Positions 39,781-57,392 of a stretch of DNA of 64,000 bases are shown here, one piece after another (positions within the stretch are counted from its first letter, which is position 1; the number at the start of each line of letters is the position of its first letter). The DNA lies in contig NZ_JOOA01000001.1 in the NCBI RefSeq assembly GCF_000712055.1, positions 124,001 through 188,000 on the forward strand, in the 5' to 3' direction. Below the pieces are notes generated by a model that worked only from the letters and a program-made list of their open reading frames with translations, did no database searches and was not told the origin of the DNA. The DNA is from Ruminococcus sp. HUN007. GTDB taxonomy: Bacteria; Bacillota; Clostridia; Oscillospirales; Ruminococcaceae. The translations under genes were made by a program, and so were the position numbers.

Positions 39781-40347
39781 TTATTTCATGAAAAAATATG
39801 CATAAATCAGGAATACTGATGCTGCCGAAAACAACACGCCAAAGAATATCGAAAGCACAAATTCCGCAATTGACTTAAGGTCTTCTTTAATAATTACCGA
39901 TCTTTCGATGAACGAAGCCATCTCTTTGCGAAAATATGTTAAATCGGCCATCATCTGCGCTTTCTGTTCGTCGTTATAACGACGCATATACTTCTGCTCC
40001 AGTTCAAGACGTTCGGAGATATCATTTACAGGCACTGAATTTTCAATGTCAGGAACAAGCAAAGTTATATCTGTCTTTTTTCTGTACTTACGGGCTTTTC
40101 TGTTTTGCGTGCTGATATGATATGTATTTCCGTTATCAGCATCTACATCGATATCATAATTTGTAGTGCTGTATTTACTGTATTTTGTTACCAATTTATT
40201 ATAAGATGTAACTGACCCCTGCACTTCACTTGCATTATTGAGATAGAATTTTCTCTGCTTATGGCAGTGATATGCATTGCACCATGAAAGGATTGCTATA
40301 AATGCTGAAAAAAATATTAGTCCAAAAGCTTCTGAGAAATCGCTCAT
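39781..40347 (-). CDS. Small membrane protein, DUF3592-like, unknown function
   Basis: 188 residues. One N-terminal membrane segment (about 8-26, LIFFSAFIAILSWCNAY) and one C-terminal (about 165-186). Between them lies a beta-rich stretch (ASEVQGSVTSYNKLV..., YDIDVDADNGNTYHIS...RKYRKKTDITLLV) that resembles DUF3592 domains. AAAGGGG is 10 nt before the ATG. An R2 fragment (40361-40424) ends directly upstream, so the gene has its 5' region replaced by R2 sequence. Confidence 0.6.
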   Translation of the reverse strand: MSDFSEAFGLIFFSAFIAILSWCNAYHCHKQRKFYLNNASEVQGSVTSYNKLVTKYSKYSTTNYDIDVDADNGNTYHISTQNRKARKYRKKTDITLLVPDIENSVPVNDISERLELEQKYMRRYNDEQKAQMMADLTYFRKEMASFIERSVIIKEDLKSIAEFVLSIFFGVLFSAASVFLIYAYFFMK

Positions 40348-40360
40348 ATCTATTATCCCC

Positions 40361-40424
40361 TTTCTTCCTTTCCGTTCTCTATTATCATCATAGGTCTCTG
40401 CAAAGGGACAACCTTAGGAAGGTA
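40361..40424 (-). repeat. R2 element fragment (copy E)
   Basis: Identical to the 3' end of copy D: shared from TTTCTTCC to TTAGGAAGG, about 60 bp, then diverging. It retains only the distal arm of the R2 hairpin, and lies just upstream of the DUF3592-like gene. Confidence 0.75.
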
Positions 40425-41977: not shown

Positions 41978-42183
41978 TTTCTGCAAAGTCTCTACAAAGT
42001 CTCTGCAAAGGGACAACCTTAGGAAGGGAAAGAACAATAAAAGCCCGCAAAAGCACGGCATTTCTTTCCCTTCCTTCGGTTTTCCCTCTGCACTCCCTTT
42101 CCCAACACCTTCCCTATCTTTGCCGGCTTTTGTTTTTTATTATAGCGCGGAGGTTTGTGGACTTAGGCGTGGTTGATGCGTTA
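41978..42183 (-). repeat. R2 structured dispersed element, copy C
   Basis: About 185-bp core from ATAACGCAT (minus strand) to the 3' arm. The 89-nt hairpin spans 42004-42092, with arm core GGAAGGGAAAGAA. A TATAAT is conserved near the 5' end of every full copy. At its downstream edge an 11-bp unit, roughly TCTCTGCAAAG, is repeated three times (about 41978-42010). Copy C lies upstream of the gene at 40453-41910. Confidence 0.85.
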
Positions 42184-42187
42184 TATC

Positions 42188-44293: not shown

Positions 44294-45055
44294 TTACTCC
44301 ACACCCAAAGCCTTAAACACGGCGTCTTCAGCACTGTTATAGAAAATAATACTGAAGTTACCCATAAGTTCCGGCGGAACTGAGCCAAGATCGGCTGCTG
44401 ATGTTATCGGAAGCAGAACTTTCTTTGCACCGCTGTCGAGACATATCTGCAGTGAATTTGCAAGCTCATCTGCTTTGATAAGTGAACCGCTGATGCTGAT
44501 TTCTCCGAGAACTGCAAGTGAAGGCAGAGCCGGTTTACCTAAGGCTATTGAGCAGATAGCTATAAGCGTTGATACTGCAAGTGTTGGTGTCATACCTATT
44601 CCCTGCAGATCCTGATAGTTTATGATATAATCCTTCGTTGATATATCAATTGCACCGCTTATACGTTTTCCGTTTGCCTTAAGGAAATTGTATGCAGTCG
44701 CTACCGCTTCTTTCGCTTCGCGGTCAGTACCGAGACCTGTTTTTTCAAACTTTCCGTTTCCCGGAAGGACCTGTGATTCAAGTCTGAAAACACCGAGCAT
44801 TCCTGTTTTGCCTCTTGATACGGTATATACCTGTCCCGGATTGCATAATCCTTCAGGAATAAGTTTCCCGCCGCCTTGTTCCGGAACTGATACGTAATGC
44901 TCCTCAAAAGTTTCGTTATCAATGTATGAGAAATTCACATCATAGAATTCCATTCCGCCAAGCTTTTTCAGCTGTTCCTTAACTCTGCGGCGCATTTCAA
45001 GAGCAAAGCGTATGATCTCTTCAATTTCTTCCTTTCCGTTCTCTATTATCATCAT
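44294..45055 (-). pseudogene. brxL: BrxL (BREX Lon-like protein) C-terminal remnant
   Basis: About 250 residues remain of a protein that is usually about 680 long. The remaining part is the Lon-like C-terminal domain of BrxL: GGGKLIPEGLCNPGQVYTV, GVFRLESQVLPGNGKFEKTG, AKEAVATAYNFLKANGKRIS, QGIGMTPTLAVSTLIAICS, LGEISISGSLIKADELANSLQ, SGAKKVLLPITSAADL and the end DAVFKALGVE. The N-terminal AAA+ half is missing; the frame begins inside R2 copy D (MMIIENGKEE is R2 sequence). No other BREX gene (pglZ, pglX, brxC) is in the window. It may still be translated from the R2-borne start. Confidence 0.75.
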
Positions 45056-45243
45056 AGGTCTCTGCAAAGGGACAACCTTAGGAAGGGAAAGAACAATAAA
45101 AGCCCGCAAAAGCACGGCATTTCTTTCCCTTCCTTCGGTTTTCCCTCTGCACTCCCTTTCCCAACACCTTCCCTATCTTTGCCGGCTTTTGTTTTTTATT
45201 ATAGCGCAGAGGCTTGTGTTCTTAAGGCAAGGTTAATGCGTTA
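45026..45243 (-). repeat. R2 structured dispersed element, copy D
   Basis: Full copy plus a roughly 30-bp downstream extension shared with copy E. The hairpin spans 45063-45151 (89 nt) and is the same length as in A and C. It interrupts brxL and faces it on the same strand. Confidence 0.85.
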
Positions 45244-45284
45244 TAGTGAAGTTTTCTTTGATAAGGCAAAACACAATAATCAAC

Positions 45285-45762: not shown

Positions 45763-48700
45763 TTATTTCGTAACGAGTTCCATAAGCTTTTCATAGCTAT
45801 TAACTACGTCATATACAACTACTTCATTACTTATAGCTTTAAAATGTTCCTTAGCACAGCTGATTTTTGCATTTTCTATAAGACGAAGTTCCATACTATC
45901 GATTGAGCCTTTGGTTTCTGCTACAAAATAGATATGCTTTACCTTGCCTTCATAGAATGCAATAGCCCAGTCCGGATTGTACTTGCCGACAGGTGTTGAG
46001 ATATAGAATCCTTTCGGAAGTTTCACATATGCCGCAACTCTGTCATCTACATCAAGTTTTTCAGCGAATTCACGTTCATTGGTCGAATCATAAACTATAT
46101 GATCATAAAGATGCTTGTTCGCTTTCATAACGTTATGATCAAGCTTGCCCTTAATAGTAGCATCGGTGAAAATATCAGCCTGATATTTTTCATCCAGAAC
46201 ATCATAAGTGATATGCTCGATAACTGATGATGCCTTTACTGAGTTTATTATAGCTGAAGTTTTCGCAATGAATTCTTCCGGATTATACTTGAACTGATCG
46301 AATACAAGCTTTTCAATTCCAGTAAGTATAGCTACTATATCTTTTCTTGTAAGTCCGGTCTCTGTAACAAGTTTACCGACAAGATCATATTTGGTCGTGT
46401 TGTTTACAGCTAATCTTATAGTGGAGTCTTCACTGCTTATCTTTTCACGTTTGAACGCTTCACCATTCAGAAGAGCCTCTTTTGATTTGATCTCGCTCAT
46501 GCTTCCTGTTTCTACAGTATATGAGATCTTTGTAACAAGATTCTTTCCTTTTGCATTGAGTTCACTTATGGCTTTGCTGATAAGTTCATTTGAATCAAAG
46601 TCAACAACATAATAAGTCTTGGAATTGATGTTATTCCAAAGTTTCTGGAATTCTGTCTTCTTGAATTTTTCTTCATCGAACTTAAGTTCAACATTATTAC
46701 TTCTTGCATTTTCAGGCATAAGCGCCGAAGGATTATATACACCTTCAAGTATAGCTACTACTTCAGCTATCTTGTCAGCATGCTTCTCACTAAGGTCAAT
46801 GGTTCCGTTAGCTTTGTCTTCGTAATACTTATCAGTAAGCGCTCCTGTTTCATCAACGTACTGATTAGTAGTAAGGTAAAACATTATCGATCTTGCTGTC
46901 GGAACGTCAATTACCTGCTGCTGTCCTTCTGTATCACTGTAAGTATGTCCGATGAACAGATCATCAGTAACGGCAACCGGTCTGTCTGCAACGGCTTCTG
47001 CCATTTCGCTCTGTAATCCCCTGGCAAAACTTTCATAGCTCTCGCTTGCAATTACAGTAAGGACATTGATATTATGTACATCACTTCCGAGAACACCGGT
47101 ATCCATTCTGTCACCTGCATTGTTTACACAGAGACGTAGTCCACGGCCTACTTCCTGACGCTTGCGAACTTCACTTGACGACTGCTTAAGAGTGCAGATC
47201 TGGAATACGTTCGGATTATCCCAGCCTTCACGGAGTGCTGAATGTGAGAATATAAAGCGTACAGGTGATTTTTTCGGATCAAGATCAAGGAGTTTTTCCT
47301 TATCTTTCATGATAAGATCATATGCATCAACTTCAGCTTTATCCCTGTCTTTGGCATTGCTGATTTCTTTTGTAGTGTTATTGGTGTAATGACCTTTTTT
47401 ATCAATAGAGAAATAGCCTTCATGTGTGCTTTCAGCAGAAATAGAAGCAAGATATTTTATGTACTCATCATTCTCTCCAAGTTCACGCTGATAGTTTTCA
47501 ACGACCGACTTATACTCTTCTTCAAACATATCAGCATAAATACCGTTTACTCTGTTGCCTGCTTCATCATACTGCTTGTAATTAGCTACTTCATCGATAA
47601 AGAAAAGTGACAGCACTTTTATTCCCTTATGGAAAAGCTGACATTCCCGCTCAATATGTGAAACAATTGTTTCATGGATCTGAATACGGCGTATCTGTTC
47701 TTCATTACTACTGCCGATTACATCACCGAGATAAAGTTTCTGTCCATTAAGAAATTCAATGTGATTATCCCTTGCATCGATACGTGAAACAACATATCCG
47801 TTTTTATACTCTTCAAGCTGCTCCGACTGCTCGTAGAGATTAAAACCTTCACTTACAGTTCTGCTCACCTGACGAGTACCATTTTTGCATTTGGTATTGA
47901 AGTGGATAGTCGCTGTAGGATTTGATTTCGAAACATTTATGCTTTCAAGAAATACAAATCCGGCACTACCCGCTTTTCCGTTTGAAGTGATACCTTTAAC
48001 TGAAATTTTCTTAACGAGTTTCTTGTTATAAGCTTCCAGCGCATCAAGTCGATAGACCATATTGTAAATGCTGTCTGACTTATGCGTCGCCGAATATCTA
48101 AGAGTTACAAGCGGATGAAACTCCTTCAGACGTTCCTTTGTCTGCTTGCCTTCTACTGACTGCGGTTCATCAATGATAACAACAGGATTTGTCTTAGCGA
48201 TAATATCTATAGGACGACGTGAGCGGAATTCATCAAGTTTCATATAAATACGTCGTGCATCTTTGCCTTTTGCGTTAAAGGCCTGTGAATTGATAATCAT
48301 AACATTGATATTGCTGTCAGAAGCAAAACGATCGATTTCTGTAAGTCTTGCAGAATTGTAGATGAAGAAACGAATCTTCTTTCCGTATTCTTCTGCAAAG
48401 TGTTCCTGCGTGATCTCGAACGATTTATATACACCTTCGCGTATAGCAACAGAAGGTACAACTACAATGAACTTGCTCCAGCCATACGCCTTGTTCAGCT
48501 CATACATAGTTTTAATGTACGTATATGTTTTACCAACACCTGTTTCCATTTCGACAGTTAGGTTATATCTGCCTTCAAGTTTATCAGAAGGTTTGATCTG
48601 ATTATCGCGCTGTATATCACGAATATGTTCAAGGACTTTTCCGTCATTAAGTTCCGGGATTAGTTTCTGATTTGCCCAGCCCGTAAAATCCTTGTCGTCG

Positions 48701-48834
48701 TCAATCGTCATCTGTTTTGACGAACCTCTGTCTACCATGTATGTAGGAGTAAGATAAGGCTGTCCTGCGAATACATCAACGACTGCTTTAGCTGCATCGG
48801 CCTGGAATTTCTGATGTTTAAACTGCAGTTTCAT
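45763..48834 (-). CDS. res: Type III-like restriction subunit (DEAD/DEAH helicase with PD-(D/E)XK end)
   Basis: 1023 residues. Superfamily 2 helicase: Walker A in VEMETGVGKTYTYIKTM (about residue 100), motif II in PVVIIDEPQSVEGK, motif III LRYSATHKSD, motif VI RQEVGRGLRLCVN. The C-terminal 120 residues have NPDWAIAFYEG then IYFVAETKGSID, the PD-x(n)-E-x-K nuclease site of Res proteins. In classical type III systems Res and Mod form a complex that translocates on DNA and cuts about 25 bp from the site. The ATG is 1 nt after the mod stop codon. It is the last gene of a five-gene operon. Confidence 0.88.
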   Translation of the reverse strand: MKLQFKHQKFQADAAKAVVDVFAGQPYLTPTYMVDRGSSKQMTIDDDKDFTGWANQKLIPELNDGKVLEHIRDIQRDNQIKPSDKLEGRYNLTVEMETGVGKTYTYIKTMYELNKAYGWSKFIVVVPSVAIREGVYKSFEITQEHFAEEYGKKIRFFIYNSARLTEIDRFASDSNINVMIINSQAFNAKGKDARRIYMKLDEFRSRRPIDIIAKTNPVVIIDEPQSVEGKQTKERLKEFHPLVTLRYSATHKSDSIYNMVYRLDALEAYNKKLVKKISVKGITSNGKAGSAGFVFLESINVSKSNPTATIHFNTKCKNGTRQVSRTVSEGFNLYEQSEQLEEYKNGYVVSRIDARDNHIEFLNGQKLYLGDVIGSSNEEQIRRIQIHETIVSHIERECQLFHKGIKVLSLFFIDEVANYKQYDEAGNRVNGIYADMFEEEYKSVVENYQRELGENDEYIKYLASISAESTHEGYFSIDKKGHYTNNTTKEISNAKDRDKAEVDAYDLIMKDKEKLLDLDPKKSPVRFIFSHSALREGWDNPNVFQICTLKQSSSEVRKRQEVGRGLRLCVNNAGDRMDTGVLGSDVHNINVLTVIASESYESFARGLQSEMAEAVADRPVAVTDDLFIGHTYSDTEGQQQVIDVPTARSIMFYLTTNQYVDETGALTDKYYEDKANGTIDLSEKHADKIAEVVAILEGVYNPSALMPENARSNNVELKFDEEKFKKTEFQKLWNNINSKTYYVVDFDSNELISKAISELNAKGKNLVTKISYTVETGSMSEIKSKEALLNGEAFKREKISSEDSTIRLAVNNTTKYDLVGKLVTETGLTRKDIVAILTGIEKLVFDQFKYNPEEFIAKTSAIINSVKASSVIEHITYDVLDEKYQADIFTDATIKGKLDHNVMKANKHLYDHIVYDSTNEREFAEKLDVDDRVAAYVKLPKGFYISTPVGKYNPDWAIAFYEGKVKHIYFVAETKGSIDSMELRLIENAKISCAKEHFKAISNEVVVYDVVNSYEKLMELVTK

Positions 48835-48835
48835 A

Positions 48836-50746
48836 TCAGATCACCTTCACTCTCGTATCAGGAGAAAGCATCTTAAAGATTTCACCAACATTGATCTTAG
48901 CAGGGCTGTCTGCAAAGCAATCATCACGGAAAACAGCTCTGAGCGGCTGGCGTTTAGCAATAGTCTTTATAACATTTTCAGAAACATTCTTTTCAAAGCA
49001 GGCAATCAGATCGCCGTCATTGTACGTATGAACTGTCACGTTCTCAATCTTCTCAGACTTATACGGCATAGATAGCGGCAATCCCCATTCAAGCAAACAG
49101 CCGAACAAAAGATCAAGGTCAGTTCTGTCAGGTTTGATATTACTTTCAAAGCCATCAAGCATCTGCTGTGTTGTTTCGGCAGGAGTGTAATAAACGTCTT
49201 CCATATTGGTATCATCGAGTTTAAGTACACGGAAACCGTAATCAATATCCGCACCAGTTTCAGATTTAATCTTAGCGCCTGCCCTGCGAATACGTTCTTT
49301 GCCTATCTCACAGATATTCTTATAGCCTGCCTTAAATGCTTCGCTGCTTTCATCAGTTTTTTCAGGAAGTTGAACCATGATAAACTTGCGGTGTCCGCCG
49401 TCCTCAGCGTTTAACTGCATAACGGCATGGGCGGTGGTGGCACTGCCGCTGAAAAAGTCGAGGATAATATCGCCATCGGAAGTGTTGCCAAGTACACATA
49501 GTTTATAAAGCATTGAAACAGGCTTTGGAGTATCAAAATACGATTCACCGCCAAACAGTTTCATTAACTCTTTTGTACCATTTGTAGATGTGCCTATTCG
49601 CTCAGCTGTAAACCATGAATTATCCACTGAACCAAAGTCTTTCTTTTCCTCATAAAATACTTTTAGTTGTGGTTTACCCAAACCGTTATTCGTCCAAACT
49701 ATACGCCCATCTGCTAATGCTTGTTGAAATTTTTCGGGCATCATACGCCAATGCCTTCCATTAGGTGGTAAGATTTTTTCACCAGTAATCGGATTTACTA
49801 TTTCATACGTGAGATTTGGTCGAATATTTGGCGCATCAAAAGGATCTGCTTTCCATAATCCACGAGAATCGTTATCTGGATTGTCATATTTATCTTTGTC
49901 AAGAGGTAAAGGACGACAAACAAAACTATCTCGTTTCATCCATTCAGCAACGTTACTCTCTTTCAAACGCCTGTTTTCTTGTCTTCTGTTTTTAGCATAC
50001 ACGCAAATATACTCATGATTTACACTAAAATCAGTATCGTTTTGAATAGAAGCTCTTGATTGCCACGGAATCTGAGCAACCATATTTATTTCGCCAAAAA
50101 CTTCATTACACACTTGTTTCAGACTATCTATTTCATTATCATCAATACTGATAAATATTACACCATCATCAGCTAGCAGATTTCTTGCAAGAATTAGCCT
50201 TGAATAGATCATACTGCACCAATCGGAATGAAATCTACCGTTTGAATCGGTGTTCTTGAAAAGGCGGTTGCCATCCTCGTCAAGCTGTCCGCTTTCCTCT
50301 GCGTAATCATCGGAAGTCATAGTAAAGTCATCGCGGTAAATAAAGTCATTTCCTGTATTGTATGGTGGATCGATGTAAATCATCTTAACCTTACCGAGAT
50401 AGCTTTCCTGCAACAGTTTCAGCACTTCAAGGTTGTCGCCCTCAATGTAAAGATTTTCTGTGGTTTCCCAATTCACACTTTCCTCTTTACATGGACGAAG
50501 AGTTTTACGTATAGGGCGGTTAGCTTCAGCAATAGCAGCTTTTTTACCTACCCATGTAAATTCGTATGATTCGTCGCCTTCAGCAATATCTTCACTTAGC
50601 ATTGCACGGAGTTTTTCGAAATCAATTGCTTTTTTCAGCTTTCCATTTTCTGCAGATGTTTCAGTAATACAATTTGGAAACAGTGCTCCAATCTTTTCTA
50701 TGTTTTTCTCCGTTAGGTTTGGAGATTCCATTTTCATTTTATCCAT
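48836..50746 (-). CDS. mod: Type III-like N6-adenine DNA methyltransferase
   Basis: 636 residues from the ATG at 50746 (AGGAG 10 nt upstream); a longer frame reaches 50767. Beta-class order: the catalytic motif IV MIYIDPPYNTGNDFIYRDDF near residue 135 precedes motif I DIILDFFSGSATTAHAVMQLN (AdoMet site) near 440. The stretch between is the target-recognition region. It would methylate one strand of a short asymmetric site. The gene overlaps no neighbour; the next gene upstream ends 13 nt before it. Confidence 0.9.
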   Translation of the reverse strand: MDKMKMESPNLTEKNIEKIGALFPNCITETSAENGKLKKAIDFEKLRAMLSEDIAEGDESYEFTWVGKKAAIAEANRPIRKTLRPCKEESVNWETTENLYIEGDNLEVLKLLQESYLGKVKMIYIDPPYNTGNDFIYRDDFTMTSDDYAEESGQLDEDGNRLFKNTDSNGRFHSDWCSMIYSRLILARNLLADDGVIFISIDDNEIDSLKQVCNEVFGEINMVAQIPWQSRASIQNDTDFSVNHEYICVYAKNRRQENRRLKESNVAEWMKRDSFVCRPLPLDKDKYDNPDNDSRGLWKADPFDAPNIRPNLTYEIVNPITGEKILPPNGRHWRMMPEKFQQALADGRIVWTNNGLGKPQLKVFYEEKKDFGSVDNSWFTAERIGTSTNGTKELMKLFGGESYFDTPKPVSMLYKLCVLGNTSDGDIILDFFSGSATTAHAVMQLNAEDGGHRKFIMVQLPEKTDESSEAFKAGYKNICEIGKERIRRAGAKIKSETGADIDYGFRVLKLDDTNMEDVYYTPAETTQQMLDGFESNIKPDRTDLDLLFGCLLEWGLPLSMPYKSEKIENVTVHTYNDGDLIACFEKNVSENVIKTIAKRQPLRAVFRDDCFADSPAKINVGEIFKMLSPDTRVKVI

Positions 50747-50759
50747 ATTAAACTTTCTC

Positions 50760-51392
50760 CTACTCAATAACTTCTAATTTAGATATATATTCCCGTACAC
50801 AATTATTTAATTCTAGCCATTTATTATTGATGATTGTAGTTCGCTCATATTCTTCAGCTGTAAATGTTTCCTTTTCTTCTTGTGATGCAAAAAATAATAC
50901 ATCGAACCTTCTTTGAAACGCATCAAGTTGTAGACGGCACAATTCTAATATTTCATTATATTTATTATACAAATCCACCGAGATAAAAGCACCGTTTGCA
51001 AATAAAGCATCTTGTGCAGTAACAACAGCATTATTAGCATCTATATAATTATTATTTTCATATTCTTTTCTTTTTTCTTTATTTGTTGGTAAATACACCA
51101 ATCCAGTTGGAATCATTATACTGATTTTTTTAATAGCAGTACTAAATTCTTTACTTAGCGTTCTATAAATTTGAAATTCTGCATCAAATCTTACTTGACT
51201 TACATATTCTTTTTTGTTTAATTCTGTTTTGTATTTTTCTAATTTCTGTTCCAACTTATTTTCATACTTAGAAGTAATTCTATCAGCAATATAATTTGAT
51301 GAAAATTTAATAACTGCAGTAGCTATGCCACCAATACCGCCAGCACTTACAATACATGCTACTACAATAGATGAGACTTGTGATAAATCCAT
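50760..51392 (-). CDS. Membrane-anchored coiled-coil protein inside the restriction operon
   Basis: 210 residues. One N-terminal membrane segment (about 8-32, SIVVACIVSAGGIGGIATAVIKF), then a coiled coil (about 38-75, SKYENKLEQKLEKYKTELNKKEY) and a helical rest. No enzymatic motif seen. The gene is 2 nt after the DUF4391-like gene and 13 nt before mod, so it is co-transcribed with both. It may be an accessory that brings the complex to the membrane, or an unrelated gene that inserted into the operon. It is more AT-rich than the flanking genes. Confidence 0.7.
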   Translation of the reverse strand: MDLSQVSSIVVACIVSAGGIGGIATAVIKFSSNYIADRITSKYENKLEQKLEKYKTELNKKEYVSQVRFDAEFQIYRTLSKEFSTAIKKISIMIPTGLVYLPTNKEKRKEYENNNYIDANNAVVTAQDALFANGAFISVDLYNKYNEILELCRLQLDAFQRRFDVLFFASQEEKETFTAEEYERTTIINNKWLELNNCVREYISKLEVIE

Positions 51393-51394
51393 TA

Positions 51395-52036
51395 CTATTC
51401 CTCCAACTTCTTTATAAGTGTTTTCAACTGTTTATTTAACTCTACCTGTCGGTTGAATTGTTTTTCCTTGCGTACCTTTGCACGAAGTTTTTCAATTTCT
51501 TTCTCAAGCTTCTCACGTTCATTCTGCCGCTCAACAGATTCTTTCAGGCTTTCACTCTTTTCATTTGAGAGTGTATCACCTGCTATCTGACGAACAAGAT
51601 TTTCATAGACTGTATCCATATTCAGTCCGTCTATCTGTAAAGAAAAATCTTCTTCAGTAACCCAGCCAGTATGATAATAGTTACCGACCTTAAAGGCTGT
51701 ATTTGTACTCTCTTCCTTGTAACCAGTCCAGAGCTGATAACGCTCCTCGTATTCAAGTATAAAAATCAGATGGTAGTGCAGTTCCTTATCCATCTGACGC
51801 AGAACGTTTACATCAAGCTCGCTTGTTTTAAGCTTAATGAAAAAAACTTCAATCTCTTTAACAGTATTCCCCTTTTCAACATTAAGCGTATCGGAAGAAA
51901 GTTTATGTCCCCAGCGTATTGAATTGATCTGGTCAATGAAACTTCGTTCCAGTTTATTATCTACACTGAGTTTTTCGTAAAACTTATTTTTCGGTATGAG
52001 CTTTCCGAAATACGTACTTTCAGGTAATCCGAACAT
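51395..52036 (-). CDS. DUF4391-like protein
   Basis: 213 residues. MFGLPESTYFGKLIPKNKFYE, KLERSFIDQINSIRWGHKLS and TVKEIEVFFIKLK, then a small alpha+beta core (YHLIFILEYEERYQLWTGYKE), match the DUF4391 family as I know it, which often lies between a SNF2-type helicase and a type III-like mod gene. The last 55 residues are a coiled coil (EKLEKEIEKLRAKVRKEKQF). The start codon overlaps the stop of the helicase gene (TAATG), so translation is coupled. Role unknown; possibly a bridge subunit. Confidence 0.75.
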   Translation of the reverse strand: MFGLPESTYFGKLIPKNKFYEKLSVDNKLERSFIDQINSIRWGHKLSSDTLNVEKGNTVKEIEVFFIKLKTSELDVNVLRQMDKELHYHLIFILEYEERYQLWTGYKEESTNTAFKVGNYYHTGWVTEEDFSLQIDGLNMDTVYENLVRQIAGDTLSNEKSESLKESVERQNEREKLEKEIEKLRAKVRKEKQFNRQVELNKQLKTLIKKLEE

Positions 52037-55000
52037 TATCCTTCACCGTCCTTTACAACAAGGAAGCAGATAAGTTCAAAATCCTGCAGCCCGGAAATAT
52101 CAGATACTAGCGCACTTGTGCCGCCAGTGCCGAAAAGACTGTCGATGTCACTTTCCTCTTTTGTATGAATGATCGAATCAATCGCCATACTGAGAAGTTC
52201 ACTCATCTGCGACATATCCCTGCCGTCGTCGGTTTCTTTGTTAAATTCAGCACAAAGTTTTTTAGACGGTTCCGACTTTCCTCTACAAAGCAAACGAACA
52301 TCGTCAAGAAGTTTTTTCGGATTTAAATAATCACATAGTACTTCACCGTCTACTCCGATATAAACCATGTAGAACGGATGAATACGGTTCTGATTTCCTA
52401 TGTTTACGCTTTCATTGACATTACGAAGAACAAAAATAACACCTTCGCCAAGTTCATCAGTTGCAGGAACAACGGCATGAAGTCCTTTCGGCTTCTTTTC
52501 GATGTCCTTGTGTGTTTTAAGGTATTCCAGCAGATCAAGACGGTATTCATTTAATCCCAGATCCATGATGGAAATTCCGTCGTTCATTTCTTCCATATCA
52601 ACAACTTCATTCATCATCTTTCGAAGCTGTGAACTTCTGTATTCGAGATCACCTTTTTCTTCTGCATTGATAAGATCATCGTCACCGGTCGAAGTCATTA
52701 CAGAGATCTTCATTCTCATTTCAACACGGGATTTCAGATTCAAATAATCGTCAAGATCCATGTCCGGCCAGAAGTTCACAAGCTGGATAACATCATTTCT
52801 GCTGCCAATACGGTCGATTCGTCCGAAACGCTGAGTGATGCGGACAGGGTTCCAATGGATATCGTAATTGACCAAATAATCGCAATCCTGAAGGTTCTGA
52901 CCTTCTGAAATACAGTCCGTTGCAATAAGAATATCAATCTCCTGTGTACTGTTCGGCATAAGAACATCACGGCCTTTGGATATCGGAGAAAACAACGTAA
53001 GAACGTTATTAAGGTTTGTTCTTTTCAGCTTTATCGTCGTTCTGCCTTCAATCATACCAGTAACAGCAGCTGTTTCGAGTCCGAACTTGTTCTTTACAAA
53101 TTTGCTGACGTTTTCGTACAAATAATCTGCTGTATCAGAAAATGCGGTGAAGATTATCATTTTCTTGTTTCCAGGGTTGATAGGCTCATTCTGTTTTTTC
53201 GTAATCAGTTCATACAGAGCCTGAAGTTTGGAGTCATGTTCAGGAGTAATATCTTTGACCATGAGAATCAGAAGCTCCAGTGCTTCGCGGTCTTTATCCA
53301 GATCATCACGCCATGAACGGTAATCCATATCAGAAAGATCTATTTTTATTTTCTTTCCGACCATAAAATCAGTATTACTGTCGTCAATGTCGAAATCTTC
53401 ATCTGACATCTCATAAGCATTCAGATTCCCTGTTCCGTATTCTTCAAAAGAGTTTATGCTTTTTATTGTCGAATCGATAAGGCTATGAATTCTTTGAAGA
53501 GTAAGAGCGAACGAATTAACGGAACTTTCAAGTCTTTTCAGAAGATTGATAGCCATGAGTCTGCGTATACCAAGTTCGCGGTTTGACTGTCTGAAATTAT
53601 CGCTGACATCCATATACTTTGAAAGCTTACTTTCAAATATGTAGTGTGACGGCATATAGACGCAGAGCGAAAGATGCATAAGTGTGCTGTAAATTTCGTT
53701 GTAGTTCACTGCATCATCAAGATCAGTGAGCTTAGGTGTCAGTGATATCGGTTTAAGTCTGTCAGGAAACTTGCCTATCTTCGCACTGTTATAATATTTC
53801 TGAATATGTTTTCTTGAACGTGCTATCGTTACGCTGTCAAGAAGTTCGAAGAAATCAAAATCCAGCATACGCAGCAGAACATCCGTTGTTCTCTGTTCCT
53901 TTGGATAACTGCTCCACTCGTTGAACACTCTCTGTGCCTGACGGAAAATCTGTTCTATCGGTTTCTTCGTATTAAGCTTTTCACTTAAGTTTTCCGAACA
54001 TCCTTCATACGCAAGTGCAAGCTGATTTCGAAGATCAGTAAAGTGATTGTTTACCGGTGTCGCAGACAGCATAAGAACCTTTGTCTTTACACCTGCACGA
54101 ATAACCTTGTCCATTAGGCGCTGATATCGGTTTTCATGAGTGTTTGAATGAGTACCTATACCGTTTCTGAAATTATGAGATTCATCAATTACTATAAGAT
54201 CATAATTACCCCAGTTAAGGCGTTCAAGATCAAGTCCGTTTGAGTAACCACCGTCACGTGAAAGATCGGTATGGAAAAGAACATCATAATTTAAACGGTC
54301 TGTTGCAATCGGATTATTTACATAGTTATCCTTGTATGTATTCCAGTTTTCCGCAAGCTTTTTAGGACACAGTACAAGTACGGTCTTGTTTCTGTTTTCA
54401 TAATATTTAATAACTGCCAGAGCGGTAAATGTTTTACCCAAACCTACGCTGTCAGCAAGAATACAACCATTATATTTTTCGAGTTTATTGATAATTGCAA
54501 GAACTGCATCACGCTGGAAATCATAAAGAAGTTCCCATATCTTACTGTTCTTGAATCCGGTCGCTTCATTAGGCAGATCATCTTCTGAAATATCTTCAAG
54601 AAACTCACTGAAAACATGGTAAAGCGTCATGAAATAGATGAATTCAGGTGAGTTTTCATTATATGCAGTGCTGATGCTTTCAATTACAGTTTCTGTTACA
54701 TCTTCAAGTTTGTCTTTGTCATTCCATAAATTATTGAAGAGAGAAATATACTGCTGAGCAAAAGGAGTATCGAGACACTGAACCATATTATATGCGTTAT
54801 TACCACGATCACAGCCTATATCCGTTGTTGTAAACCCAACTATCGGAGAAAAAGCCGCAGCATCTTTTTCATTATCGACAGTAACAAAACCAATCATTCC
54901 GTCACCGCTGATATTTGAACGGAACTGAACCTTTTTGCGTATCCAGTCAGCACATTCCCTGGCAATTGCCTTCTGCGTCATTTCATTACGGAGCTTGATT

Positions 55001-55269
55001 TCAAATTCTGTTCCGTAAAGGCCAGACTCACGATCTTTTCGAGGAATGAAAAATTCACGTTTCTCCTTTTTTGAAGACTCTTTTACAAAAGTCGGAGAAG
55101 TGAAAATAAAACGAAGTTCATCTATACTGTCCAGCTGTTTCTTTAGTTCTTTATATGCATACATTGAAAAACATGAAGCTGCAATTGTTATTTTACTTCC
55201 GCTTTTAATGCTGTCTATCAGTTCGTCTTTTAAAAGTGTATTAATATTATCTATGACTTTCAAATGCAA
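52036..55269 (-). CDS. SNF2-type helicase with degenerate N-terminal PLD-like domain
   Basis: 1077 residues. Residues about 1-190 have a phospholipase D-like fold (KITIAASCFSMYAYKELKKQL, LRFIFTSPTF), but I cannot find the HxKxxxxD catalytic motif, so it is probably not a nuclease. The SNF2/RapA-like ATPase follows: Walker A ADSVGLGKTFTALAV, DEAH-box DLIVIDESHNFRN, motif III LMLSATPVNN, motif V SEGQNLQDCDYLVNYD and motif VI RITQRFGRIDRIGS. First gene of the five-gene operon. The start is TTG at 55269, with AAGGAGGT 5 nt upstream; a second TTG two codons later is possible. Confidence 0.85.
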   Translation of the reverse strand: MHLKVIDNINTLLKDELIDSIKSGSKITIAASCFSMYAYKELKKQLDSIDELRFIFTSPTFVKESSKKEKREFFIPRKDRESGLYGTEFEIKLRNEMTQKAIARECADWIRKKVQFRSNISGDGMIGFVTVDNEKDAAAFSPIVGFTTTDIGCDRGNNAYNMVQCLDTPFAQQYISLFNNLWNDKDKLEDVTETVIESISTAYNENSPEFIYFMTLYHVFSEFLEDISEDDLPNEATGFKNSKIWELLYDFQRDAVLAIINKLEKYNGCILADSVGLGKTFTALAVIKYYENRNKTVLVLCPKKLAENWNTYKDNYVNNPIATDRLNYDVLFHTDLSRDGGYSNGLDLERLNWGNYDLIVIDESHNFRNGIGTHSNTHENRYQRLMDKVIRAGVKTKVLMLSATPVNNHFTDLRNQLALAYEGCSENLSEKLNTKKPIEQIFRQAQRVFNEWSSYPKEQRTTDVLLRMLDFDFFELLDSVTIARSRKHIQKYYNSAKIGKFPDRLKPISLTPKLTDLDDAVNYNEIYSTLMHLSLCVYMPSHYIFESKLSKYMDVSDNFRQSNRELGIRRLMAINLLKRLESSVNSFALTLQRIHSLIDSTIKSINSFEEYGTGNLNAYEMSDEDFDIDDSNTDFMVGKKIKIDLSDMDYRSWRDDLDKDREALELLILMVKDITPEHDSKLQALYELITKKQNEPINPGNKKMIIFTAFSDTADYLYENVSKFVKNKFGLETAAVTGMIEGRTTIKLKRTNLNNVLTLFSPISKGRDVLMPNSTQEIDILIATDCISEGQNLQDCDYLVNYDIHWNPVRITQRFGRIDRIGSRNDVIQLVNFWPDMDLDDYLNLKSRVEMRMKISVMTSTGDDDLINAEEKGDLEYRSSQLRKMMNEVVDMEEMNDGISIMDLGLNEYRLDLLEYLKTHKDIEKKPKGLHAVVPATDELGEGVIFVLRNVNESVNIGNQNRIHPFYMVYIGVDGEVLCDYLNPKKLLDDVRLLCRGKSEPSKKLCAEFNKETDDGRDMSQMSELLSMAIDSIIHTKEESDIDSLFGTGGTSALVSDISGLQDFELICFLVVKDGEG

Positions 55270-55446: not shown

Positions 55447-55530
<84 letters not shown>

Positions 55531-55695: not shown

Positions 55696-55963
55696 CCTTC
55701 TCCATAACGCATCAACCAAGCCTTAAGTACACAAACCTCCGCGCTATAATAAAAAGCAAAAGCCGGCAATGAGGGAGTAGGTGTTGGGAAAGGGTGTGCA
55801 GAGGGAAAACCGAAGGAAGAGGGAGAAATGCCGGCTTTTACTGCGGTTTTATTGTTCTCCCTCTTCCTAAGGTTGTCCCTTTGCATAGACCTATGAAAAT
55901 CACCATTACTTAAAATAAAAGAGAAATCCCTGAGGCAGCATTCACATACCACCTCAGGGAAAG
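55696..55963 (+). repeat. R2 structured dispersed element, copy A
   Basis: Core from ATAACGCAT (55704) to GACCTATGA (about 55897), plus a longer tail shared only with copy B, ending in the hairpin CCCTGAGG/CCTCAGGG. The 89-nt main hairpin is 55797-55885; the arms pair at 28 of 31 positions. The loop contains TGCCGGCTTTT (55829-55839), which is the exact complement of AAAAGCCGGCA upstream (55758-55768), so a pseudoknot or an alternative pairing is possible. A conserved TATAAT lies at 55745-55750. Confidence 0.9.
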
Positions 55964-55978
55964 ATAATTCATATTCAG

Positions 55979-57011
55979 TTAAAGAGTTTTACCGAGTGAT
56001 TCAGCTATCTGCTTTAATGTGTCAATATCCAAACCGGAATATCGTTCTATTTCATCTACAGGTTTTCCTTCATTGATCAACATTTTAGCGAACTCTTTGA
56101 CAGCACGATCTTTTTCCTCAATTAATCTGTCCTTTGCTGCAAGCTCTTGTTTAGCTGCCGCTAATTCCGCTTTTGCTGCATAAAGATCCTCAGTATAATA
56201 TCCGCTTATATTGCACATTCTGTCCATCACCTCATTATATTCCTTCGTCATCTTAATATCATAATCTTTTTTCAAGTTTGTCCTGCTTTTCTTTCGATGG
56301 TTTATTCTTTTCGAAAAGAACACTTAGCATATCGATAAGCTTGTTACCGCATTTACCTTCATCTCCGTTTGTGTGAAGGCAAACAAGGATTGTTTCCATT
56401 ATGTCGTAATCCTTTACCGGCAACTCCGCATCTCCAAACACATGTTTTTCTGTGACTTGATATCGGTTTATTGTATTCTGATATTCCTTCTCCGGATTGA
56501 TACAGATCCATATAGAATACACCTTTTTTATCTTACCATAATCCGATTCTGTAAATTCCACACCATACTGAGCTGATATCATTCTTGCATCGTAATACAA
56601 TCCTCTTTTAACAAGAGGATATCCCGGATTAAACTTATTCTGTGCCTCAAGGTTTATATATACTTTCGTATATTCTTCCTCTCCAGGTATGTGAATAACA
56701 AACCGTACATCGTAAGTAACTTTCCCCTCTTTCAGGTCGTTATCTTCATTTCCAGCCTGATTTATTTTCTCAGGCTTTTCCGTACGGTCATCTTCATCCC
56801 TGTGTACAGGAACATTAGCGATCTCCGGCTCACCGATAATGCATTCATCTTCAATTGTCTTCAGCGAAAGATCTGAAAGTTCGGGAATACACGATTTTAA
56901 AATTAAAGCACTTATTACCTTATAGCTTAATAAAGCCTTTGCACCAGCATCCATGTATTCTGCGCCTTCAAGTTTTTCGAGTACATGCCAGAACATTGTA
57001 CGTATTTCCAT
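55979..57011 (-). CDS. Rpn-type PD-(D/E)XK nuclease family putative transposase, split by one frameshift
   Basis: 343 residues after removing one base from T6 (56267-56272); the repaired junction reads KEKQDKLEKDYDIKMTKEYNEVM. The nuclease core has YDVRFVIHI (Asp) and VYINLEAQNKF (E-x-Q), as in Rpn/PDDEXK_2 recombination-promoting nucleases. The C-terminus has the usual coiled coil (AAKAELAAAKQELAAKDRLIEEKDRAVKEF, written here in shortened form: AELAAAKQELAAKD) and the small helical end DEIERYSGLDIDTLKQIAE. Two direct R2 copies flank it (55696-55963 and 57197-57386). The start lies just downstream of its promoter; SD is weak (GGAAATATGG). Confidence 0.75.
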
Positions 57012-57196: not shown

Positions 57197-57386
57197 CCTT
57201 CTCCATAACGCATCAACCAAGCCTTAAGCCCACAAACCTCCGCACTATAATAAAAAGCAAAAGCCGGCAATAAGGGAGATGGTGTTGGGAAAGGTTGTCC
57301 CTTTGCATAGACCTATGAAAATCACCATTAATTATAATAAAAGAGAAATTCCCTGAGGCAGCATTCACATACCACCTCAGGGAAAG
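57197..57386 (+). repeat. R2 structured dispersed element, copy B (hairpin deleted)
   Basis: Same orientation and same ends as copy A, including the CCCTGAGG/CCTCAGGG end hairpin, but about 78 bp shorter: the proximal arm, the loop and part of the distal arm are missing between GGGAAAGG and the distal GGTTGTCCC. The deletion can be explained by recombination across AAGG. Confidence 0.85.
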
Positions 57387-57392
57387 AAAACA

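Follow-up and report, generated by a model that had tools for sequence, protein, structure and literature searches.

A dispersed Oscillospirales repeat with three covarying segments and a possible pseudoknot-locked triplex fold

In the 64-kb window analysed here (the whole stretch of Ruminococcus sp. HUN007 DNA), several dispersed stretches resemble one another, and some of them contain a hairpin whose two arms change together between copies. The question that this locus raises is what is being kept folded, RNA or DNA, and in what form. A first-pass annotation, made from the letters alone, put a folded RNA first and a folded-DNA mobile element, in brackets, second. The evidence assembled below from the window and from related genomes bears out the folding, the arm covariation and the pseudoknot loop; the RNA part of that reading is less well supported, and the DNA element fits better.

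Copies in the window and distribution of the repeat

The five copies or fragments reported originally, A to E, were all recovered, both by direct reading and by alignment, with refined coordinates (Table 1); by eye, the match of fragment E to copy D is slightly longer than its match to copy A. The hairpin of copies A, C and D does have the same length, TGCAGAGGGAAAACC-N59-GGTTGTCCCTTTGCA, 89 nt in each, and the three compensatory changes claimed for it can be read directly from the arms (GGAAGAGGGAGAA/TTCTCCCTCTTCC versus GGAAGGGAAAGAA/TTCTTTCCCTTCC). The complement of the upstream segment in the loop of copy A is exact as well (AAAAGCCGGCA at 55758 and TGCCGGCTTTT at 55829). In copies C and D, the loop complement is inexact, with a one-base bulge by eye, and the pairing score prefers a different X/X' pairing with one mismatch. 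The right-end hairpin of copy A is terminator-like for the convergent minus-strand gene and might act as its terminator.

Table 1. Copies of the repeat in the window and segments of copy A
Feature	Position	Strand	Basis or remark
Copy A, complete long-form element	55696..55968	+	Between-copy homology begins and ends about there
Copy B	57197..57390	+	Hairpin interior gone, deletion between AAGG repeats
Copy C, short form	41999..42184	-	Hairpin 42004-42092, putative third strand 42093-42120, X 42121-42131
Copy D, short form	45052..45251	-	Hairpin 45063-45151, putative third strand 45152-45179, X 45180-45190
Fragment E, confined to the 3' end of a copy	40388..40421	-	Alignment to A
A: X strand AAAAGCCGGCA, partner of X' in hairpin loop	55758..55768	+	Sequence; X/X' covariation
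A: putative third strand (RH), mirror of the purine 5' arm	55769..55796	+	Mirror scores, triplex scan
A: TGCA, mirror centre and hairpin bottom	55797..55800	+	
A: purine arm (R) of hairpin	55801..55828	+	
A: X' in loop, TGCCGGCTTTT	55829..55839	+	Exact complement of X
A: pyrimidine arm (Y) of hairpin	55855..55885	+	
A: right-end hairpin TCCCTGAGG...CCTCAGGGA	55927..55960	+	Sequence, folds

The element lies outside Rfam, as had been suspected: no family reached the gathering threshold in the 64 kb, and the sub-threshold matches on copy A are mostly to microRNA hairpins. A search of the open-access literature, with subscription papers outside its scope, returned no account of the repeat family.

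The genome from which the window comes (G000; 4.2 Mb in four contigs) contains 12 matches to copy A. At the DNA level, 3 of the 11 genomes in the genus match, and a covariance model adds 3 matches in genome G007; within the family, at least 12 of the 297 genomes match, a lower bound given that at most two candidates were scored per genome. The covariance model, built from 25 sequences, finds matches at E <= 1e-4 in 20 of the 394 genomes of the order, the weakest of which (G632, for example) could have arisen by chance. In the phylum-wide search, 3 of 398 genomes match, namely, the window's own, one of its family and G789, where the match looks like low complexity. A degenerate pattern for the lower stem retrieved 66 stretches in 19 named assemblies, with 73 distinct cores, and the titles of these assemblies read Clostridia, Oscillospiraceae or Ruminococcus. 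Among 26 genomes searched more fully, the ten richest have 15-47 model matches each, opposite-strand shadows included. No match was obtained in viral contigs (searched with the exact pattern), phage records or plasmid records. Altogether, this is a real, widespread repeat family that we could not assign to a named one and in which three segments covary.

Covariation of arms, linker and loop

Copy A folds with a more favourable energy than all 200 of its dinucleotide shuffles (z -5.9), and the same holds for its reverse strand (z -5.4). Arm pairing is kept in further copies: across 26 hand-picked types, to which some genera contribute two or three, the 5' and 3' arms of the same type fit each other much more closely than arms swapped between types (z 13.9, with the G045 row wrongly anchored in this comparison). 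Given that own arms outscore swapped ones and that no Rfam family reaches the gathering score, the novelty that the first-pass annotation had claimed is undermined neither by arm changes that break pairing as often as they keep it nor by a known Rfam family.

Alignment of the relatives brought out a third covarying segment. The purine-rich linker 5' of the hairpin is the 5' arm reversed, not complemented: in copy A, AATGAGGGAGTAGGT lies opposite the reversed arm AAAGAGGGAGAAGGA, and in copies C and D, AAAGATAGGGAAGGT lies opposite AAAGAAAGGGAAGGA, the mismatches always being T opposite A. The code of the antiparallel purine-motif triplex is G.GC, A.AT and T.AT, as given in the main text of Holder et al. 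2015 (PMC4666352), and the linker relates to the arm by this code. A scan of both strands of the window for class I triplex blocks (12 triads, at most one mismatch per strand match, that is, >=11/12, loops of 3-45, class I only) returned exactly copies A, C and D, all of which have the class I intrastrand purine-motif layout, with RH, R and Y in that order on one strand and RH as an antiparallel purine segment; the same scan returned nothing in 20 block-shuffled windows and nothing in 17 other loci totalling 57 kb.

We compared linkers and arms in 27 clusters drawn from 76 of the 80 copies, those preceded by 60 nt or more of sequence. The mean mirror score of a linker with its own arm is 11.8, against 8.3 with the arms of other clusters, and none of 20,000 permutations or 200 linker shuffles reached the observed sum. 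Among 29 loci outside the set used for the search model, which leaves X, linker and loop unpaired, the best small mirror falls at the expected centre in 21, several of these in new letters, such as AAAGAGGGAG|CCAC|GAGGGAGAAA and AAAGATAG|TGT|GAAAGAAA; simple shuffles served as the control, a few genomes contribute many of the loci as multiple copies, and in two of the 21 (L173 and L192) the score is not above, or barely above, the 95th percentile of the shuffles. The best mirror lies elsewhere in the other 8 of the 29 (L174, L176, L184, L193, L195, L204, L208 and L212). These 29 are what remains of the 43 loci L170-L212 after omission of 8 in the genome of the window, 2 in G012, and L179, L185, L189 and L200. 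Duplication does not explain the mirror because, by simple reasoning, replication cannot make a mirror copy of DNA.

Some relatives depart from the full layout. Miniature forms (L181, L184, L187-L189 and L196, families f13 and f14; L189 judged by eye) comprise the lower stem and the mirror only, for example, GGGAAAGATAGTGTGAAAGAAAACCGTCAGGGTTGTCTTTC. In L127 and L140 (JAFUHM), the linker is swapped for another AT-rich hairpin insert and the main hairpin is retained.

The pairing between X and the loop segment X' varies in its letters as well. In the 27 clusters, own X/X' pairs outscore swapped ones (0 of 20,000 permutations); the score is 9 or more in 16 clusters, in about ten letter versions: AGCAAAAGCCGGCA, AGCAAAATCCGGCA, AGCAAAAGTCGGCA, AAAAATGCGGA, AAAAGTACGACA, AAAAAGTACGCAG, AAAAAATCGGG, AAAAATGAGCA, CAAAAACGAGCA and, by eye, AAAAGTGCGGC in G241. 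The best pair scores below 9 in the remaining 11, GGCC-type loops among them. The pseudoknot loop pairing is thus stronger than the sequence of a single window could reveal. By eye, in types such as copy A and G015, X abuts the putative third strand and X' abuts R, so that the passage from reverse-Hoogsteen to Watson-Crick pairing would be gapless.

What the repeat may fold into

We consider it probable that the repeat is a non-autonomous mobile DNA element whose purine strand folds into a class I intrastrand triplex locked by a pseudoknot; of the structure class we are fairly sure, and the folded material is likely DNA rather than RNA. Under this reading, the purine-rich strand, once single, would fold on its own, arms R and Y forming the hairpin, and the G/A/T-rich segment preceding R would sit antiparallel in the groove of this hairpin as a reverse-Hoogsteen third strand (G.GC, A.AT, T.AT). 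X, located 5' of this strand, would then form Watson-Crick pairs with X' in the loop and lock the top. The resulting strand order, X-RH-R-X'-loop-Y, is that of an H-type pseudoknot, in which the first loop would form the triple helix. The folded form might be recognised by a protein, or might stall a polymerase on the exposed strand, and the element would spread and suffer deletions as a result.

We advance more tentatively, as quite possible if short of probable, the further proposal that a DNA pseudoknot locked on a purine-motif triplex is the selected and recognised form of a mobile element whose three segments co-evolve across the order. If true, the covariation would be rare evidence that nature selects for a DNA triple helix and that such a helix has a function in the cell. 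A putative third strand that, in many species, changes together with the arm it targets makes the question accessible to compensatory mutation, the usual approach for RNA. The proposal would also enlarge the range of mobile-element folds and extend intrastrand triplex repeats to Oscillospirales.

The wobble pairs bear on which strand is folded. In the upper stems of the 26 types, G-T pairs outnumber A-C pairs 13 to 3 (with the G045 row wrongly anchored here too), and a G-T of the lower stem is invariant in all 25 aligned sequences; a count over all copies, 59 G-U and 53 A-C, includes redundant copies and ran into loop ends, and the 13:3 ratio is preferred. The excess and the fixed pair suggest that the purine-rich strand is the folded one and fit DNA and RNA alike. 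Together with the hairpin, the loop pairing, a T-run downstream of X' and a TATAAT 5' of 12 of 18 copies in g1, the genus of the window, they can also be read as signs of a structured RNA, a pseudoknotted non-coding RNA or attenuator whose transcription starts from the TATAAT; the mirror would then be incidental, or an RNA triplex of an unusual kind. We regard this as rather unlikely. The TATAAT, initially described as a conserved 5' feature, precedes just 16 of 80 copies overall and is lineage-local; the orientation of the copies relative to neighbouring genes is free; no Rfam family matches at the gathering score; and the purine-motif code in the linker is one that, according to the main text of Holder et al. 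2015 (PMC4666352), RNA cannot form. It is the linker code and the lineage-local TATAAT that leave the RNA reading less well supported than the DNA triplex.

The linker could also resemble the arm simply through shared purine richness, the element being an ordinary hairpin repeat of the MITE or REP-like kind. In the 26 types, the mirror score of linker and own arm is 12.2, compared with 8.7 for swapped arms (z 11.0, 0 of 20,000 permutations). A control in direct orientation is itself above swapped arms (z 5.3), so part of the mirror signal, not all of it, comes from shared purine composition; the reverse-complement control is flat (z -0.2; the G045 row is wrongly anchored in both controls). The upper mirror is, moreover, weak, absent or below the direct control in G248, G181, G655, g107 and JAFUQX and absent in L113, L126, L127 and L132. 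Against this stand the orientation, mirror exceeding direct in 19 of the 26 types, equalling it in 4 and falling short of it in 3 (p 7e-5), and the specificity, a type's own linker being the best or joint best among the 26 arms in 15 types (one row misread). Several types have gap-free registers of 14-16 triads, the triplex scan of shuffled windows is empty, and T in the linker is tied to A in the arm: under identity-only scoring, and with clusters of alignment score <7 left out of the table, T is found opposite A at 25 of 121 positions and opposite G at 2 of 240 (Fisher p 4e-11). We regard an ordinary hairpin repeat as quite improbable.

The proposed triplex shares with H-DNA mirror repeats the purine mirror repeat about a short centre; unlike in H-DNA, a single strand suffices here because the inverted repeat supplies the pyrimidine arm on the same strand. 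Telomerase RNA and SAM-II are H-type pseudoknots in which loop 1 forms a triple helix in the major groove of stem 2, with a pyrimidine third strand parallel to the purine strand, in RNA. The repeat described here has the same strand order, whereas its third strand would be purine and antiparallel to the purine 5' arm.

The kind of element as such is already known. As described in the main text of Holder et al. 2015 (PMC4666352), BoxC/PIT/TM_ECO are dispersed intrastrand-triplex repeats of E. coli and other Proteobacteria, for which a triplex in vitro, a polymerase block in vitro and genomic instability are reported. According to the same text, in vivo DMS footprints do not support a stable triplex at TM_ECO and earlier in vivo work saw no effect, and the role of the triplex repeats is argued from their abundance and the surrounding genomic instability (PMC4666352). 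Judged against this description, both are dispersed, with RH, R and Y purine-motif blocks on one strand, copy numbers that vary widely among relatives, and deletions within copies. The class and size differ: TM_ECO has a 9-nt stem, the pyrimidine block first and short loops, whereas the present repeat is of class I, with the putative third strand first, an upper block of as many as 16 triads in a single register and a further, lower block. The X/X' lock and the three-segment covariation are the additions. The pattern of TM_ECO, CCCTCNCCCN3-6GGGNGAGGGN3GGGNGAGGG, has no match in 239 loci or in the window. For the upper 12-mer of copies A, C and D, the RH-R gap of 29 and the hairpin loop of 33 fall outside the limits given there for ITxF (stem 6-15 nt, loops 1-6 nt; PMC4666352). 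The words Clostridi-, Firmicutes and Ruminococcus do not occur in the main text of that paper (PMC4666352).

Mobility and gene context

Mobility of the repeat is likely. The copies are mostly intergenic: 4 of 83 overlap a long ORF and 25 have no flanking ORF within reach, ORFs <600 nt on a copy having been discarded as artefacts before the count. We also considered the element as a terminator or leader and rejected this, since the 54 placed copies follow no rule of orientation (upstream/downstream genes same/same in 21, opposite/opposite in 14, opposite/same in 14 and same/opposite in 5).

The dispersal is patchy. In genus g6, one of 11 genomes matches (G015), with 20 near-full matches and others partial or clipped by contig ends. 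The G015 copies lie between what we take, from the look of the proteins, to be core genes; gyrB and the other gene names at such loci are likewise presumed from protein appearance. At the site downstream of gyrB, the element is absent in 3 relatives (the 3 that were judged, one further being incomplete; five loci are on the other strand). In genus g1, a site common to G000 and G009 has no element in G004 (75% identity); in this single filled/empty comparison, no terminal repeats and no clear target-site duplication were seen by eye, and the G004 contig ends soon after. This contig begins with what looks like a sequencing-adapter remnant (L216, 1-47), which makes its first bases suspect.

REPIN/RAYT elements and MITEs are likewise small, dispersed, non-coding hairpin repeats that are moved with outside help and can occur as outward-facing pairs. 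The terminal repeats and target duplication of a MITE were not clearly visible in the one comparison above. Unlike REPIN/RAYT, it is not accompanied by a Y1 transposase in 7 of the 10 carriers searched: PF01797 matches in G009, G223 and G012 and not in G000, G005, G015, G202, G118, G277 or G312, with the proviso that MAGs may be incomplete. In the same ten carriers, the reverse transcriptase expected with a retroelement ncRNA (PF00078) matches in G000, G009 and G015 and not in G005, G202, G118, G223, G277, G012 or G312. Neither enzyme tracks the carriers, and these searches yielded no mobilising enzyme.

Copies in genus g1 often have an end close to a facing stop codon, 14 of 23 lying no more than 15 nt from one and 18 of 23 no more than 40 nt; in this raw count, 23 of 27 copies were used (E, L045:11332, L058 and L059 omitted), orthologous copies were kept separate and ORFs <75 aa were ignored. 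The long forms carry a terminator-like right end adjoining the stops of unrelated genes. It is highly improbable that the repeat is a folded single-strand recombination site 3' of gene cassettes, akin to the integron attC and shuffling toxin-antitoxin and nuclease genes: the g1 long forms do abut stop codons, of genes that we take to be Rpn-like, ParE-like, HEPN-like, PIN-like and others, and four copies share one orientation in L053, but none of the 80 copies has the attC core sites, RYYYAAC and GTTRRRY, close to both of its outer ends, and the neighbours include large genes unlike cassettes as well as the apparent core genes of G015.

Composite arrangements occur too. In G118, two triplex-type cores of different type lie back to back with their hairpin ends outward in four places (L225-L228); three of these pairs, when aligned, share the interior and differ in the flanks, and the fourth, in the other orientation, is outside the alignment. 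Similar outward pairs are present in G015, G261 and JAFUQX. The G118 composite may be a complete mobile unit.

Between copies D and A of the window lies a defence island (45763-55269, minus strand) with the Type III restriction-modification genes res (45763-48834) and mod (48836-50767, minus strand), a DUF4391 protein and an SNF2/helicase protein close to PADLOC C3a139. Upstream of the start of a 1077-aa helicase is a (TGTC)n run of about 80 nt (55448-55529), which looks like a phase-variation repeat; a similar run occurs in L048 (12078-12187). A PDDEXK_2-like nuclease gene in two frames (Rpn-type, below the Pfam cut-off; 55979-57011, minus strand) separates copies A and B, and copy B is followed by the remnant of an antitoxin-like gene, a longer form of which lies beside copies in L048 and L051. 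An ORF for a Lon C-terminal protease (44294-45115, minus strand) starts inside copy D and may have been truncated by its insertion. Fragment E is followed by a 188-aa gene with no Pfam match (39781-40347, minus strand), which recurs after a short-form copy in L050 and L051.
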